From positions 813,384 to 877,383 of the forward strand of contig NZ_LUKD01000001.1 of assembly GCF_001592745.1 (NCBI RefSeq): DNA of 64,000 bases. Reading direction: 5' to 3'. Positions 4,604 to 11,410 of the stretch are shown here, in pieces (position 1 is the stretch's first letter; every line of letters starts with the position of its first letter). Both the position numbers and the translations under genes were made by a program. The notes under the pieces were generated by a model. That model had not been told where the DNA came from and did not search any database. It worked only from the letters and a program-made list of their open reading frames with translations. This stretch comes from Bdellovibrio bacteriovorus. Its GTDB lineage: Bacteria > Bdellovibrionota > Bdellovibrionia > Bdellovibrionales > Bdellovibrionaceae.

Positions 4604-5455
4604 TTAGTTCGTGGGACAGATGGCCGCGCGTTCAGCCGCGGTGATTGAAAACTTCACGTAGGGTTTGAAAGCCTTTAAACGATTGCGAATTGTCGTGAAT
4701 CCAGAAGAATTCCCATCCGTATTTTTCACCCAATAGGCATCCACTTTTTCATTACTCCAGCCACAGAACTGTTTCAAGGCCATGCCTGAAATCAGGCCCG
4801 ATGAATGCCAGCCGTTCCAGCAGTGCGCATAGATCGGACCATTCATTTTCCCTTTGATACGGTTGTAGACCATTTGCAGGATGGCTTCGTTTTCTCCTGC
4901 TGCCGCATATTGCTTGTACTGCATGGTATGGCTTTGGTGAGACGTGTTTTGACAAGACACACTTCGAGGTGCTGTTTCGTAGTTTTCTGAATAAAGATAA
5001 ACGGAGGCTCCGAAGTCTTCTTTACAAAGATTATTCAGACCGACAGTGGGCAATGGATTTACATTGTTTCTTGGCGTGCTGAGATACTTATTATTAGCTC
5101 CCCCACGGTACATCACACCATGAAGAACAACACGAAAATTGCGAGTGCCCCAAAGCTCATCAACACCATCACCTCTGTTATCAGTGAGTTTTGCGAAAGT
5201 GTCAGCCAGTTCGTAACGGTCTTTGTACTTCTGAGCTTCTCTTTGAATACTGAATGCAGTGGAACCAGTATCTGGTGGTACAATAGCTCCTCCAGATGAA
5301 TTGGAATCGTCAGGTATTTGATTGGGCTCCTCTTGACCCACATTTCCCGAAGCGGCGTCTCGCACGCCTTTCATGAGCGCAGCTTCCATACATCCTGTAA
5401 GTTGAGTAACGGCAGCGAATAAAATGATTGCGGTTTTGAAATATCCTGTTTTCAT
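4604..5455 (-). CDS. lipoprotein with degenerate tyrosine/dual-specificity phosphatase signature
   Basis: 283 residues from ATG 5455, which has AAGAGA upstream; starts at 5467 and 5488 are possible. Lipobox QLTGC near residue 22 predicts a membrane-anchored envelope protein. After a Ser/Pro-rich linker comes a domain with VMYRGGANNKYLSTPRNNV and, near residue 211, HCWNGWHSSG. This aligns with the phosphatase loop HCxxGxxR(S/T)G, with Cys212 present but Ser at the Arg position (218). Phosphatases of this fold need that Arg, so this is either a pseudophosphatase or a changed enzyme. Two more Cys pairs may form disulfides. Confidence 0.6.
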   Translation of the reverse strand: MKTGYFKTAIILFAAVTQLTGCMEAALMKGVRDAASGNVGQEEPNQIPDDSNSSGGAIVPPDTGSTAFSIQREAQKYKDRYELADTFAKLTDNRGDGVDELWGTRNFRVVLHGVMYRGGANNKYLSTPRNNVNPLPTVGLNNLCKEDFGASVYLYSENYETAPRSVSCQNTSHQSHTMQYKQYAAAGENEAILQMVYNRIKGKMNGPIYAHCWNGWHSSGLISGMALKQFCGWSNEKVDAYWVKNTDGNSSGFTTIRNRLKAFKPYVKFSITAAERAAICPTN

Positions 5456-5658
5456 TCTCTTGATCATGCTGAAGTTTTGTCGAAACACACAATCAGACTA
5501 GACCCACTTTTTTCCTAATACGAGGCACTCGCAGATTTTCCTATCCCTTTGTAGCGGCGGGTCTTCTGTAGATAAGAATATTCTCTTTTTTGTAAGGTGC
5601 GGATGGCTCCGTTCCTCTTTATAAATGGCTCATCACCCTAAGCAGAAAAGAGTTTAAA

Positions 5659-7014
5659 ATGAGTAAGAAATGGATTTCCGTCCTTTGTGTCACCGCGTGC
5701 GCGTCTTCTTCATTCGCCTTGAATCTCTCGGAGTTGCAAGGTGAACGCCGTGTAGAGTTTAGATCACCTCAAGGCCTGGCAGAGGTTTGTGTTGTTCCAA
5801 AAAAATGGCCAGGAGCTTCTTATCGTGCCGATGATGTAGAAAAAGAAAATGATCTTTGCAGTTACGACTTTCACACCAATATGGGAATTTGTCCGAAATA
5901 CACTTCAACAAACCCCGCAATCCTTTTATTAAAACCCAACGCCTCTTATTCCAAGGCGGCGATTGATGCTTCTAACTGCGACGTTAAAAAGATGAATGTG
6001 AAAACGGAAGCCAAATTCAAGCAGTCCGTGACGTGCTCGTACACTCCGGCCATTCTTGCTTACTATCCGATTTCTAGAATTTTAGGCAACGTCGGTCGCG
6101 TTCCGGTAGCCGTTATTCGTTCCATGGATCGGGACGTCCATTCTCGTCAGACTGACAAAGCTATTGCCCATTTTCAGAATAGTGCTGATGAAATTAAATA
6201 CTCTTGGAATGCCATGGGGAAAGTTCATAAAAATCCCGCGAACTACCCAACCGTCATTGATGGAACTTTGAGCCAGATTTACGGAGCTCTTTCCGATAAT
6301 ATTAAAAACGAAGAGCAATATGTTGAAGTCAGTGGCAAAGGCTCGTATGACACGCGCTATGAGCGTTTTTTACAGCAGCCTCCATTCTTAAAAGTTTCTG
6401 GCTCTCAAACAGTTGAACAAATGTTGGGAACAAAAGACTTTGCAACCGTGGCGCAGACCGTAACTCAGATGAAGGATGTGTCGGATTTAGTTCTCTTAGA
6501 CACTCTGATGAATCAACAAGACCGTATTGGAAACATTCACTATAAATTTTATTGGTACGCCGCGAACCCATCGACCCAAAAGATCGAACGCATGAAGTCC
6601 GAAGCAAAGTGGGTGGGAAATCAATTGCAAGTCCCGCAAGCGGAAAGAGATTTGATGGCTGGAAAGCAAGCCGCTCTTATCAAAGAAATGGTTCTTAAGG
6701 ACAATGACTGCGGCATCGTTAAAACCAACATGATGAGACGAGTGAGCGCATTGGAAAAAGTCCGACATATGAGCTACAACACTTACCGTCGCTTTATGGC
6801 TTTTGAGCGCACGTTAAAAGATGCCTACACCAAAGATTATTTCATGAAAGAGATGCTTTTCACTTCTAGCGACTACGGTGTCCTAGTGGGAAATGCGTCT
6901 AAAGCAAAACAAATCCTGCTTTCAAAATGCCAAGCTGGCGAATTGATTTTCGACGTGGATCTTGAAACATACATCCCAGGCGCGACGAAACCTTCTTATC
7001 GTTGTGATCTATAG
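5659..7014 (+). CDS. secreted protein with FAM20-kinase-like motifs
   Basis: 451 residues with a signal peptide ending near SSFA-LN. No annotated bacterial family comes to mind, but the motif order resembles FAM20C/PI3K-like atypical kinases: a possible ATP-Lys in LLLKP (Lys92), a possible Glu (Glu117), the segment AILAYYPISRILGNVGRVPV (131-150) matching the FAM20-type helix plus VP strand, LLDTLMNQQDRIGN (catalytic-type Asp288 and Asn292) and LKDNDCG (Asp348/Asp350, metal-binding type). Cys residues fit export to the periplasm or beyond. The kinase idea is inference from motifs only. It converges on the VTC gene one base away. Confidence 0.55.
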   Translation: MSKKWISVLCVTACASSSFALNLSELQGERRVEFRSPQGLAEVCVVPKKWPGASYRADDVEKENDLCSYDFHTNMGICPKYTSTNPAILLLKPNASYSKAAIDASNCDVKKMNVKTEAKFKQSVTCSYTPAILAYYPISRILGNVGRVPVAVIRSMDRDVHSRQTDKAIAHFQNSADEIKYSWNAMGKVHKNPANYPTVIDGTLSQIYGALSDNIKNEEQYVEVSGKGSYDTRYERFLQQPPFLKVSGSQTVEQMLGTKDFATVAQTVTQMKDVSDLVLLDTLMNQQDRIGNIHYKFYWYAANPSTQKIERMKSEAKWVGNQLQVPQAERDLMAGKQAALIKEMVLKDNDCGIVKTNMMRRVSALEKVRHMSYNTYRRFMAFERTLKDAYTKDYFMKEMLFTSSDYGVLVGNASKAKQILLSKCQAGELIFDVDLETYIPGATKPSYRCDL

Positions 7015-7056
7015 TTTATCGATAAAGGATTCCTGACGAGACCACGTCAGGAATCC
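7015..7056. other. dyad cluster at a convergent gene junction
   Basis: A perfect 12-base palindrome TTTATCGATAAA (7015-7026) is followed directly by a perfect 12-base-pair hairpin, GGATTCCTGACG (7027-7038) and CGTCAGGAATCC (7045-7056), with a 6-base loop. The hairpin lies inside the last codons of the VTC gene. T runs are weak on both sides, so it is a poor standard terminator. Confidence 0.75.
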
Positions 7057-7801
7057 CTAAGTGAGTCGCCATAGAGTTGCCAAACTTAGAAAACGACCCG
7101 CCGACCAATCCAAACTTACGAATCAGATCAATCATCCAAAGCGGAATTTTCTTTTCACACTTCAGTTCTAAAACCACGCACTTTCCCGGCTCTTCAAAAG
7201 ATTCCGGGTGATCGTAATGCGACAAAAGCTTCTCGTTGGGCGTAACAGTCCAAGTGTTCGCTTCGTGAAAACGCAGGTCGCGGTCAAAGGTCACACGGGC
7301 ATAGTCATCAACGTGGGATATATACGCCTTCCGACGATACTGAGTCAGTATGACGGGGCCGACGTTGTAAGTGATTTTCTGTCTTAGAAAGTCCTCAAGA
7401 TTACCTTTGGAGCCTTCCTCGACATTCTCCGGAATAGTGTCGTATTCCAGAATATCCGACCAGTTGGGAATAGACACCTTTGCTCGTTTCTTTTTAACGA
7501 ACTCTCGCACCTTGTACTTCACTTCAAAAAAATAGGGAGGCGCTGTTCCCGCTCCATAAGACCTGATTCGCATATTAAAACTAAAGGCATTAGCGCGCTC
7601 TTTAAAATGAAGAATAAAATAAGACGGAGAATCCAGATAAAGACTATTGATCGTATAATATTTGTCGTCCGCGATCTCAGAGAAATGATCCATGTAGCAA
7701 TAGGCTTCAACAAACCGGGATATAGGTTCGACCATATCGGGAGAGATCAGGTACTTTAACTCATACCGCTCTAAGTTTAAGGGCGAAACCTGAATGCTCA
7801 T
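7016..7801 (-). CDS. VTC-domain polyphosphate polymerase
   Basis: 261 residues, a stand-alone VTC catalytic domain (triphosphate tunnel fold). The yeast homologue Vtc4 makes polyphosphate from ATP inside a basic tunnel. Seen: ERYELKYLI at residues 11-19, YTINSLYLDSP, MRIRSYG, FFEVKYK, KKKRAKV, QYRRKAYIS, RVTFDRDL and VLELKCE, which are the charged strands of the tunnel. No SPX domain or membrane helix, so the enzyme is cytoplasmic or held by partners. ATG 7801 overlaps the stop of the TolC-like gene (ATGA). Last gene of a four-gene operon with a DUF4956 membrane protein, a frequent VTC partner in bacteria. Confidence 0.88.
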   Translation of the reverse strand: MSIQVSPLNLERYELKYLISPDMVEPISRFVEAYCYMDHFSEIADDKYYTINSLYLDSPSYFILHFKERANAFSFNMRIRSYGAGTAPPYFFEVKYKVREFVKKKRAKVSIPNWSDILEYDTIPENVEEGSKGNLEDFLRQKITYNVGPVILTQYRRKAYISHVDDYARVTFDRDLRFHEANTWTVTPNEKLLSHYDHPESFEEPGKCVVLELKCEKKIPLWMIDLIRKFGLVGGSFSKFGNSMATHLGIPDVVSSGILYR

Positions 7802-8949
7802 AAAAGGGCCTTCAACGACTTATCCAGATAGTTTTTCTCAGGCGAGTTATTTAAAACCTCAGACTCTAACAAATACTCCAGATACAAACTTAAGATTTCT
7901 TGTTGCTGATTTAATAGGTCTAGTTCCTCTTGCTGTTCAACGATTTTCCGCTCGATATTTGCCAATGGATCCAAACTGCTCGCTTGAATTTTACTGAGCT
8001 TCTGTGTGTCTTTATAAATTTCAATCAGATTTAAAACCTGCACCCGCAAAGTTTCTAGGCGATTCCCGGTCTCTTCAATATCGCGTTGTTTTAAGGCACG
8101 CTTTAAAATCAACTCGTTCTGTTTTTGTTTCGCCAGGTCGTCCGAGAAAAGAAATGGCAATTGCACCGTCACTTCAACTTCATAAGAAATATCATCATTC
8201 TTGCGGTTCTGACTGACATCCAATCCCTTAAACCATTGCTTTTCTCGTCCCTTAACAATGGTCAACTCTTGGCTGATCTGCTCGATTTCTTCGTTAGCTA
8301 TTTTCTTTGTCAGTGAATCACCTTTGACGACAGTTTCTTTCAGGCTCTGCTCCACATGGTCGATGCTGATAAGGTTTAGATTGTCGAGATCTCCTTCTTT
8401 CCAAGAAGGCACCCATACTTGGATCTTCGTTTCTAGCATCTGTTTTTCCTGTTGCAACAAAGCCAAAGTGCGTTTGAGTTTCACCAGCTCACTGCGCGCC
8501 GAAACAAAAGACTTGGAAGTCACCCTGCCCGCACGCAACGACAAGGTCTGAGCCTGCACATTTCGTTCTGCAAGTTTGATCACTTCTTTTAATTTCTCGG
8601 ACTTCTGACGGTTTAATTCATAAAGCAAAAGCGTGTTGTAACGGTTTTTCAAAGCCCATCCCAATGAGGTATTTCGAAGAAGCTTTTGCTCTGTCCCTTT
8701 AGGACGACCCGTCTTCCATTCCGGCCAGGATTTAAATTGAAACTTAAGACCTATTTTAGACTTGGTATCACCGTCATCATCTTCGGTTGAAACAAAACCG
8801 TCTACACTGCGCAAAGGATTTTTAGAATCCGTGGCCTGTACTTCTTCGAAAGACAGGTAAGTCTTATCGTTCCAGGCCGTTTTAAGAACCTGTTCTGGCG
8901 TAATAGCCAACGCCGAAGTAGCAAACAGCCAAGGAATCAAGAACATCAT
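7798..8949 (-). CDS. TolC-like outer-membrane efflux protein
   Basis: 383 residues with a signal peptide (LFATSALA-ITPEQ). The N-terminal ITPEQVLKTAWNDKTYLSFEEVQA resembles the start of outer-membrane efflux proteins. Two long coiled-coil blocks (about residues 110-190 and 270-365) would form the periplasmic helical barrel. It is somewhat shorter than usual (420-490). The gene overlaps its neighbours on both sides by four bases, so adaptor, outer-membrane channel and polymerase are made together. Family call from overall pattern, not a strict motif. Confidence 0.7.
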   Translation of the reverse strand: MMFLIPWLFATSALAITPEQVLKTAWNDKTYLSFEEVQATDSKNPLRSVDGFVSTEDDDGDTKSKIGLKFQFKSWPEWKTGRPKGTEQKLLRNTSLGWALKNRYNTLLLYELNRQKSEKLKEVIKLAERNVQAQTLSLRAGRVTSKSFVSARSELVKLKRTLALLQQEKQMLETKIQVWVPSWKEGDLDNLNLISIDHVEQSLKETVVKGDSLTKKIANEEIEQISQELTIVKGREKQWFKGLDVSQNRKNDDISYEVEVTVQLPFLFSDDLAKQKQNELILKRALKQRDIEETGNRLETLRVQVLNLIEIYKDTQKLSKIQASSLDPLANIERKIVEQQEELDLLNQQQEILSLYLEYLLESEVLNNSPEKNYLDKSLKALL

Positions 8950-10724
8950 TGCTGCCCCTGAGCCGCCGCAAAAGGTATGGTAATGAACTTGCCACCTTTT
9001 TTATTGTCAAAAACTCCAAAGATCTGATGGTGGGAAGGTCCCAGTGAGATACCTTCTAACTTCTTCACATCGAACTCTTGCACCAACTCGGTCTGCGAGG
9101 TTTCCGGGTTGATTTTCCAGACCGCACTGCACTTTTCGCTCACACAAGAAGTTGAAATATAAATATGATCCTCGGTATGAATCATGTCCGAAAGATAAAG
9201 ACTGGTTGTCTTATTCGGCAGTCGCAAGGGAAAGCGGTGGGCGACACTGACATTCTTTTCAAGAATACGACCCGTCTCAAAAAGGGCCTCGATATTTTTA
9301 ACTTTTAAAATCAAGCCTTCACCAGCGAAGATCATTGGCCGTTTTAATGCTAAGTACAGGTCCCCGTCTTTAACAAAATGCCCTTCGACTTCAAGATCAT
9401 TCAACTTTGTACCCTGACTCTGTCGGGCAATTTCTTGTAGGGTTGGATCTTTAGCAGCCGCTAAAGTCGGCAAAAGAGCTTTTCTTATATCCACTTGTTT
9501 ATCTAAGGAAAACCGGATGCCATTGCGCTTAACCTTCACAAAAAGCTGACGCGCATCTTTAAGATTTTCTTTCTTCGTGGCCGAAAGCGAACTTAACAAA
9601 TAGATATCGCTTCCTTCGGCAGAAATAGATTCGATGTCTTCCATTTTGTCCAATCCCTCGACGGGAAGCATTTGTTCCGCGACTTCACCTTTGGCATTCA
9701 TCAACAGGATCCAAGGGTGATCGTCTGGATAGTCGTCAGAGATCATCGCAAACTGACGAATCTCGGGGATATAGGTCAACCCTGATATTTCAGGTTGAAA
9801 CTGCTCGGTGATTCGCGCGGGAAAATAAATTTCTTCAAGGCTTTGAAAGCTGTCAGTTCCAATTTCAGCTTGTTCGGCCTGAGCCGTGCTGAACAAAGTA
9901 ATACCCCAGGATTTTTTAACTGTTACCTTTTCCCCGACTAAAAAACCGTTGGCATTGGGAATCTTAATAACAACTTCACGTCCCCAGGCCGGAAGGGTTT
10001 GAATACGCATAACACGATCAGGAATCTGTACAATACGCGTTCCCACACTGACGACACGACCTTGAATCTTGTGGCCACTGGCAGAAACCACATCGACCAG
10101 CTGACCTACGTTGATCGTCGCATGAAGATTTTCATTCACATAGCCATTGATATAGCTAGGATTCACAGGAACCAGAGTTAAAAGTGGAGCAAATGCGGGA
10201 GCCTTTTCGCCGTTTTTAAAATTCACTGCTCCAACCGCACCATCTACTTCCGCAAAAACGAAAAGGTTGCGCAAGCGGTTCTCAATCAGATCCATTTCTT
10301 TTTTTGTATCGTTAAGATCCACTAGCAGTGGGTCCGCACCCTCGGGCATCTTCGCATAATCTTTTGTAAGATGAGAGATCTCTTGGCGTAATTTAAGCTC
10401 TGCCAGCAAACGGTCGTAGCGAGACCGAAGAATGCGCAATTGATTGTCCAATTCTTTTTGACCCAGCTCCAAAAGAAGGTCGCCTTTTTTCACAACTTGG
10501 CTAGGCATCACATGAATTTGCTTAATTTCGACAGCCGTATCAAAGTTGACTTGGAACTCTCGCGATTCTGCGATTCCCAAGATGCTGACAGTCTCTGAGT
10601 TTAGAACAAATCCAAAACTAAGTATGATGAGCACGGCCACACACCAGGTCGCGGCCAGGAACTTATTGTCCGAGCCTACAAAATCTTCCATAAAAGTCTT
10701 AAGAAATGAGCGTGCGGCTTTCAT
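8946..10724 (-). CDS. HlyD-type periplasmic adaptor fused to a phytase-like beta-propeller
   Basis: 592 residues from ATG 10724 (GAGGTG upstream; codons at 10727 and 10730 also possible). Order: one membrane helix (about 23-43), a lipoyl/barrel half (FDTAVEIKQIHVMPSQVVKKGDLLLELG), a coiled-coil hairpin (about 90-155), the second lipoyl half (FAEVDGAVGAVNFKNGEKA) and a beta-barrel (YVNENLHATINVGQLVDV). These are adaptor domains of type I-like exporters. From about residue 300 the chain turns into repeats of phytase-like/SdiA-regulated type: EISGLTYIPEIRQFAMISDD, MEDIESIS, LNDLEVEG, KLEGISLG. No ABC transporter gene is nearby. Confidence 0.75.
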   Translation of the reverse strand: MKAARSFLKTFMEDFVGSDNKFLAATWCVAVLIILSFGFVLNSETVSILGIAESREFQVNFDTAVEIKQIHVMPSQVVKKGDLLLELGQKELDNQLRILRSRYDRLLAELKLRQEISHLTKDYAKMPEGADPLLVDLNDTKKEMDLIENRLRNLFVFAEVDGAVGAVNFKNGEKAPAFAPLLTLVPVNPSYINGYVNENLHATINVGQLVDVVSASGHKIQGRVVSVGTRIVQIPDRVMRIQTLPAWGREVVIKIPNANGFLVGEKVTVKKSWGITLFSTAQAEQAEIGTDSFQSLEEIYFPARITEQFQPEISGLTYIPEIRQFAMISDDYPDDHPWILLMNAKGEVAEQMLPVEGLDKMEDIESISAEGSDIYLLSSLSATKKENLKDARQLFVKVKRNGIRFSLDKQVDIRKALLPTLAAAKDPTLQEIARQSQGTKLNDLEVEGHFVKDGDLYLALKRPMIFAGEGLILKVKNIEALFETGRILEKNVSVAHRFPLRLPNKTTSLYLSDMIHTEDHIYISTSCVSEKCSAVWKINPETSQTELVQEFDVKKLEGISLGPSHHQIFGVFDNKKGGKFITIPFAAAQGQQ

Positions 10725-10726
10725 CA

Positions 10727-11410
10727 TCACACCTCGATCACAGACTCTTGGTTCATAAAGTTCAATCCACGCACTGAATCCACTTTGCCAAGGTCTTCAA
10801 TGAGCTGGGAAGACGTCGTTTGAGGTTTTAAGCGCACTTGATAGGAAAAATCCAAACGATCCCCTTGCCCCATTTCTCGGATCGTCGCCAATGCGAAGTG
10901 ACGGCATTTGCCTTCAAGCACATTTTCAATCTGTCTTTGTTGTTCGGGGTTGCGTGCTAGGTTAAAGCGCAAAAGTCCGTCAAATTGTGGACCTGCTGCG
11001 AATGAAGACCCCTGCAGCACCAAAAGGGCAATTACAAAACAACCCGTCCCTAAGATCGCAATTCCATAGGCATGCACCCCGGACGCAAGGCCCACTGCCA
11101 GAGAGGCAAAGATGAAAAACATATCGCGCGGATCTTTGACATTGGTTCTAAAGCGCAACAAAGACAAAGCACCGATCATCCCAATACCACGGGCCACATT
11201 GTCGCCAATAGCCTGCATAGCGATCGCAATCACGATCGGCAGTAAGACTAAGCCATGCAGGAAGTTCAACGAATAGGACAGCCCTCGGAAAGTTTTAACG
11301 TAAATAACGGCCAAGACCGTACCTAATACAAAACTCAACAGGAATGCGTATACGATTGAGATCCACGTCGGATTTGAAAATGATGAATTCAGAATAGAAA
11401 AGTCCAACAT
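10727..11410 (-). CDS. DUF4956 membrane protein
   Basis: 227 residues. About four membrane helices in the first 130 residues; the family signature GMIGALSLLRFRTNVKDPRDMFFIFASLAVGLASG is clear (about residues 77-110). The C-terminal ~90 residues are soluble and likely cytoplasmic. DUF4956 genes often sit beside VTC polyphosphate polymerase genes, which supports a role as its membrane partner or channel. First gene of the operon; its TGA stop overlaps the start region of the adaptor gene. Confidence 0.85.
   Translation of the reverse strand: MLDFSILNSSFSNPTWISIVYAFLLSFVLGTVLAVIYVKTFRGLSYSLNFLHGLVLLPIVIAIAMQAIGDNVARGIGMIGALSLLRFRTNVKDPRDMFFIFASLAVGLASGVHAYGIAILGTGCFVIALLVLQGSSFAAGPQFDGLLRFNLARNPEQQRQIENVLEGKCRHFALATIREMGQGDRLDFSYQVRLKPQTTSSQLIEDLGKVDSVRGLNFMNQESVIEV

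Follow-up and report, generated by a model that had tools for sequence, protein, structure and literature searches.

What does a polyphosphate polymerase do in one operon with the parts of an outer-membrane exporter? The question arises in Bdellovibrio bacteriovorus, where four ORFs lie at 7016-11410 on the minus strand of our window (the whole stretch of 64,000 nucleotides analysed), with a 4-base overlap at each junction. An initial annotation, made from the sequence alone, had assigned these ORFs to DUF4956, HlyD, TolC-like and VTC proteins; all four are present there, and the DUF4956, HlyD and VTC calls exceed the curated Pfam cut-offs. The features are listed in Table 1. We write D for DUF4956, H for the HlyD-type adaptor, T for the TolC-fold protein and V for VTC, and call a locus with all four a DHTV unit. 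The best single explanation of the unit, to which we give a probability of roughly 0.55, is a synthase-driven trans-envelope machine for polyphosphate export.

Table 1. Window coordinates of the operon, the parts of its adaptor and two accessory genes
Feature	Coordinates	Strand	Basis and remarks
DUF4956 membrane protein, 227 aa	10727-11410	-	Pfam, hydropathy; first in transcription order
HlyD-type periplasmic adaptor fused to a beta-propeller, 594 aa	8946-10730	-	GTG start; second
N-terminal transmembrane anchor of adaptor, residues 20-43	10602-10673	-	Hydropathy, AF2 helix
Adaptor domains and short helical hairpin, residues ~45-275	9906-10598	-	AF2; Foldseek/VIA matches to MacA, EmrA, MexA
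Beta-propeller, residues ~300-590	8961-9833	-	AF2, VIA-align
Predicted TolC-fold outer-membrane channel protein, 383 aa	7798-8949	-	AlphaFold2 model, Foldseek; third
Predicted VTC polyphosphate polymerase, soluble, 261 aa	7016-7801	-	Pfam, Vtc4 match; fourth
Presumed secreted protein with kinase-like motifs, accessory, convergent	5659-7014	+	Motif level
Lipoprotein-like protein with tyrosine-phosphatase-like core, accessory	4604-5488	-	Motif HCWNGWHSSG

The DHTV unit is real. A DUF4956 profile scan of 84,980 species genomes gave 80 loci, many of them from metagenome bins; all ORFs were searched for HlyD, since antisense ORFs mask the HlyD gene in some Fibrobacter loci. All four genes were found in 66 of the 80 loci, 13 stop at a contig edge and one has no VTC, so the four stand together in 66 of the 67 uncut loci. 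The search for the same gene order in other genomes, proposed with the initial annotation, thus found it conserved across phyla: DUF4956-HlyD-TolC-VTC is strict save in eight loci, mostly from Desulfobacterales, that read HlyD-TolC-VTC-DUF4956, with gene junctions of -4 or -1 bases in most cases. Chance adjacency is ruled out, as the order and the overlapping or near-touching genes recur in dozens of genomes with different flanks. Over 51 non-redundant loci the distance matrices of the four proteins correlate with r 0.76-0.84, a pattern that joint inheritance would produce. The locus lacking VTC (L107) is the only uncut one with DUF4956, HlyD-propeller and TolC-like genes alone.

The hosts fall in about seven phyla, from Bdellovibrionota, Desulfobacterota, Fibrobacterota, Gamma- and Alphaproteobacteria, Nitrospirota and Spirochaetota to others. 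Full units were found in Bdellovibrio, Halobacteriovorax, Desulfonema, Desulfamplus, Fibrobacter, Crenothrix and Woeseia, and further in Nitrospirales, an alphaproteobacterium, a bacterium of the Spirochaetia and a Delongbacteria bin; in a Planctomycetota locus the sequence breaks off behind the HlyD gene. Cultured carriers include Bdellovibrio bacteriovorus strain kdesi and Fibrobacter intestinalis ATCC 43854, the latter with the full set of four. All of these host groups, we take it, have an outer membrane. The unit is ancient or widely transferred.

Within the genus the unit is all-or-none. Among 24 genomes, DUF4956 and the TolC-like gene occur in 16, VTC in 15, and none of the DHTV genes in the other eight; the one-genome difference (G010) is a contig gap, where one contig ends in DUF4956 and a truncated TolC-like gene and another begins with a homologue of the accessory ORF 5659-7014. 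Because the unit keeps its order in several different genus neighbourhoods, it behaves as one cassette. Genes for Wzz-like and polysaccharide-deacetylase proteins lie 2-5 kb upstream, but a link was rejected since they do not adjoin the unit in other contexts. Promoter and terminator scans of the operon gave hits at shuffle level only, and inspection by eye of the region upstream of DUF4956 revealed no Pho box.

The polymerase matches VTC (PF09359) over residues 12-246 with a Pfam E of 2.6e-45 (155 bits; curated cut-off 23), and by Pfam and hydropathy the protein has no SPX domain and no hydrophobic or transmembrane segment. A PDB search with the single VTC sequence gave no match; an alignment profile found yeast Vtc4 (E 9e-7). 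In all 98 VTCs compared, which come from DHTV-type loci, the residues equivalent to Vtc4 R196, K200, R264, R266, E279, K281, K294, R361, R373, E426, K428 and K458 are identical; the 98 are not all independent, since some represent one genome in two collections. Vtc4 R361 and R373 align with R157 and R169 of the window protein, whose tunnel residues also include R78, R80 and E212; R196 and K200 lie outside the profile alignment and were placed by eye from the motif R-x-x-x-K-Y-x-x-x-P. Going by the Vtc4 structures, we take these positions to be catalytic residues, tunnel lysines and arginines, and metal-binding glutamates. The tunnel residues, a check raised with the initial annotation, are thus intact in every member, the one exception being the position of Vtc4 K455, which is not conserved. 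By its residues the operon's VTC appears to be an intact polyphosphate-making enzyme.

This enzyme is no general replacement for PPK1, a role ruled out by the presence of PPK1 in 23 of the 24 genus genomes; the window's genome has PPK1 too, so its VTC is not simply a substitute. One near-complete genome of the genus (G013) stands alone among the 24 in having the VTC operon while PPK1 was not detected, and there VTC may be the main polyphosphate polymerase.

DUF4956, the most conserved of the four proteins, carries an invariant FR.N.KD.RD stretch. Its Pfam match (E 2.1e-14) is accompanied by a weak one to MgtC, and hydropathy indicates that the protein crosses the membrane about four times and ends in a cytosolic domain. 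By analogy with the yeast complex we propose it as the inner-membrane conduit, through which the polymer would pass; none of the searches run detected homology to the yeast VTC membrane domain.

The second gene product has the membrane anchor, barrel-sandwich domains and helical hairpin of a HlyD-type adaptor, as judged from Pfam (HlyD_3, E 4.4e-6, above the curated cut-off) and from a structure model that is close to MacA (Foldseek E 3e-11) and EmrA. The propeller domain mentioned in the initial annotation forms the C-terminal part of this protein and is modelled as high-confidence beta structure, with best VIA-align Z scores of 20.4 to YjiK, 18.3 to glutaminyl cyclase and 18.2 to the human calcium-activated nucleotidase SCAN. 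Its acidic residues E314, D332, D365, E367, D515, E559 and D575 are invariant. On a possible calcium apyrase (SCAN/CANT1) or phytase nature of the propeller, the points observed are the SCAN-like fold, exceeded by the likeness to YjiK, and this set of invariant acids. A PDB search with a propeller profile found no credible sequence relative, and in some relatives the domain weakly matches Pfam DUF3616, Phytase-like or SdiA-regulated. In three Chitinispirillaceae loci (L125, L130, L151) the propeller has a gene of its own, placed between the adaptor and TolC-like genes where both are visible, which makes it a detachable part of the machine. Trimming or binding of polyphosphate is a possible role for it. 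Several Fibrobacter loci (L145, L146, L148, L149, L160 and others) have a second HlyD-like gene a few kb downstream of the unit.

The third gene product of the window has no Pfam match (PF02321), and one relative (in L043) gives a weak match to that family below the cut-off. The TolC-like call was nevertheless supported by modelling. In an AlphaFold2 model built with 19 homologues, at a mean pLDDT of 83, long helices connect to two beta-hairpins as in a TolC fold, and the Foldseek matches include TolC (E 1e-11), ST50 and OprM, with E values between 1e-11 and 1e-9. The earlier remark that no ABC transporter is nearby extends to all energised inner-membrane transporters sought, with no ABC, RND or MFS pump among the four genes and the six neighbours scanned; the genome may still have an unlinked pump at another site.

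Taken together, the operon probably makes polyphosphate and moves the polymer out of the cell. Soluble VTC would make polyphosphate from ATP at the inner face of the inner membrane, and the growing polyanion would thread through DUF4956, standing in for the Vtc1-type membrane domain of yeast. If the four proteins form a complex, the HlyD-propeller adaptor would reach from its anchor in the inner membrane to the TolC-fold channel, and the polymer would reach the cell surface or medium with polymerisation as the force and no separate ATPase pump. The periplasmic propeller would probably bind the polymer or its divalent cations, or trim it. Three points lead us to infer this mechanism: eukaryotic VTC couples synthesis to translocation, for which a proton gradient is also required (PMC10657179); no other pump was found; and Gram-positive bacteria have a VTC/DUF4956/CotH core with no HlyD or TolC listed. 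In the open-access literature we found no paper describing the DHTV unit, no experiment on any DHTV operon and no dedicated bacterial polyphosphate export machine.

The unit resembles four known systems in part. With the eukaryotic VTC complex (Vtc1-Vtc5, yeast vacuole) it shares the VTC domain, the same catalytic residues, and the expected course of synthesis at the cytosolic side and passage of the polymer through one membrane; it differs in having no SPX and no fused membrane domain, with DUF4956 in place of the Vtc1-type domain, and adds an adaptor and an outer-membrane channel. With tripartite exporters (type I secretion, MacAB-TolC, EmrAB-TolC) it shares a HlyD/MacA-type adaptor and a TolC-fold channel, but no ABC, RND or MFS pump was found, the adaptor carries a propeller and the operon includes a polymerase. 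Synthase-dependent exopolysaccharide secretion (cellulose, alginate, Pel) runs from an inner-membrane synthase over a periplasmic scaffold to an outer-membrane pore. The DHTV unit would work alike if our model holds, although it is not a member of that class: it has no glycosyltransferase, and its polymer would be inorganic polyphosphate.

The fourth likeness is to the accessory genes of Gram-positive pel loci, where VTC and DUF4956 are adjacent and a secreted CotH kinase is often present as well. There VTC, DUF4956 and CotH are listed as accessory neighbours and HlyD and TolC are not (PMC7112168). In Streptococcus intermedius, deletion of VTC brought no reported change, while deletions of DUF4956 and CotH changed aggregation and the amount of Pel; the study reports that it came across no VTC/DUF4956/CotH arrangement outside the Pel locus (PMC12345266). 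DHTV units differ in having HlyD and TolC and, in the flanks scanned, in standing apart from pel-type loci: no adjacent pel biosynthesis genes were seen there. Gram-positive neighbours of this kind are what would be expected if HlyD and TolC were an outer-membrane add-on.

How far the polymer travels is the point on which the strongest competing explanation turns. In a phylum-wide sample VTC occurs in 67 of 325 genomes, and its neighbourhoods either are DHTV units or have DUF4956 and neither HlyD nor TolC; the latter form is seen in many Bdellovibrionota. The pair therefore functions alone, and the cargo of HlyD and TolC could differ. VTC and DUF4956 might thus deliver polyphosphate to the periplasm only, as an energy source, chaperone or counter-ion, while HlyD and TolC export a peptide, a glycan or an ion-polyphosphate complex. 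The pairs in the same phylum that work with no outer-membrane exit favour this, as does the periplasmic position of the adaptor's propeller; but neither the operon nor the scanned neighbours yielded a pump that could serve a second substrate, and the four genes stand together in 66 of the 67 uncut loci. We hold it to be improbable, at about one chance in five. Beside two of the pairs lacking HlyD and TolC stands an arylsulfotransferase-type protein (L081:5239-6909, L083:5044-6816).

Neighbouring genes bear on the cargo. A Nitrospirales locus (L154) has PstS, PhoU and a phosphate-type permease after VTC, and a Thiotrichaceae locus (L129) a PiT phosphate transporter; phosphate-uptake genes in these places fit a phosphate-related cargo. 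The unit very probably functions in phosphate-polymer biology.

Other neighbours suggest a use for exported polymer: polyphosphate or another high-energy phosphate could be the phosphoryl donor of extracytoplasmic CotH-type or kinase-fold enzymes acting on surface proteins or glycans. CotH kinases adjoin the unit in L108, L109, L115, L122 and L157, most of them carrying lamin-tail domains, and beside units in Desulfobacterales-type loci the CotH matches have Pfam E 2e-31 to 4e-69; lamin-tail proteins follow the unit in Fibrobacter-type loci, and in L043 a DUF2252/APH-like gene overlaps VTC. Pfam finds no CotH in the window flanks. What adjoins the unit there is ORF 5659-7014, with the kinase-like motifs LLDTLMNQQDRIGN ... 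LKDNDCG; its K119/K121, E218, D288-R-x-x-N292 and D348-N-D350-x-G352 vary little or not at all across 22-26 divergent homologues. This ORF occurs in 16 of 16 genus carriers of the unit and in 0 of 8 non-carriers (Fisher's test on the raw table of ORF against VTC, 15/0 vs 1/8, p = 1.2e-5, uncorrected for kinship of the genomes). Two genomes (G015, G016) have the homologue elsewhere, so the link to the unit is not only one of proximity; homologues in genomes of other family genera that lack VTC (G025, G027, G035) show that it is not exclusive to the unit either. The gene at 4604-5488 travels with ORF 5659-7014, also in genera lacking VTC (G027, G035), and its active-site loop, invariant in 10 homologues, has Ser in place of the motif Arg.

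In Halobacteriovoraceae a large presumed secreted protein stands next to the unit, with shared motifs such as WIGNND..NN and HDLGFSFG; the large Halobacteriovorax neighbours have no Pfam or PDB relative. Homologous large presumed secreted neighbours were seen in L054, L055, L057, L059, L060, L100, L102, L106, L046 and L121; they have 1100-1300 aa where complete, come sometimes in two divergent copies, carry kinase-like loops and have no Pfam match.

Both ORF 5659-7014 and the Halobacteriovoraceae proteins look kinase-like by motif, which with the CotH and APH-like neighbours and the co-occurrence in the genus speaks for the donor role. But the likeness stops at motifs: ORF 5659-7014 has no Pfam or PDB match and no profile library recognises its motifs, and as a CotH homologue it was rejected, with an HHalign probability near zero, although the single stretch that aligned was the part of CotH resembling its catalytic loop. 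Many loci, moreover, have no recognisable kinase, and known secreted kinases use ATP. As the main explanation of the unit this is doubtful, and somewhat more so than delivery to the periplasm.

Least probable, and very unlikely in our view, is that VTC senses triphosphate or polyphosphate and gates a DUF4956/HlyD/TolC exporter of unrelated cargo, for although VTC belongs to a wider superfamily with non-polymerases and yeast Vtc2 and Vtc3 carry non-catalytic VTC domains, a sensor would not need every catalytic position tested save K455 to be invariant in the 98 VTCs.

Polymerase-driven export of polyphosphate by the DHTV unit thus stays our preferred reading. Extracellular and surface polyphosphate of bacteria has been reported, and the DHTV operon is a concrete and widely conserved candidate for its export. 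If the reading is true, the coupled synthesis and translocation known from yeast would extend to a two-membrane envelope, and DUF4956 would gain a function. A bolder version, which we regard as speculative and rather unlikely, is a polymerase-driven two-membrane polyphosphate exporter in many phyla whose polymer is phosphoryl donor or partner for secreted kinases outside the ATP-containing cytosol. If ORF 5659-7014 and the Halobacteriovoraceae proteins are indeed kinase-like, four sequence-unrelated secreted kinase-type partners have been recruited beside one machine; export by the unit would also bear on how secreted kinases could obtain phosphate where ATP is absent.
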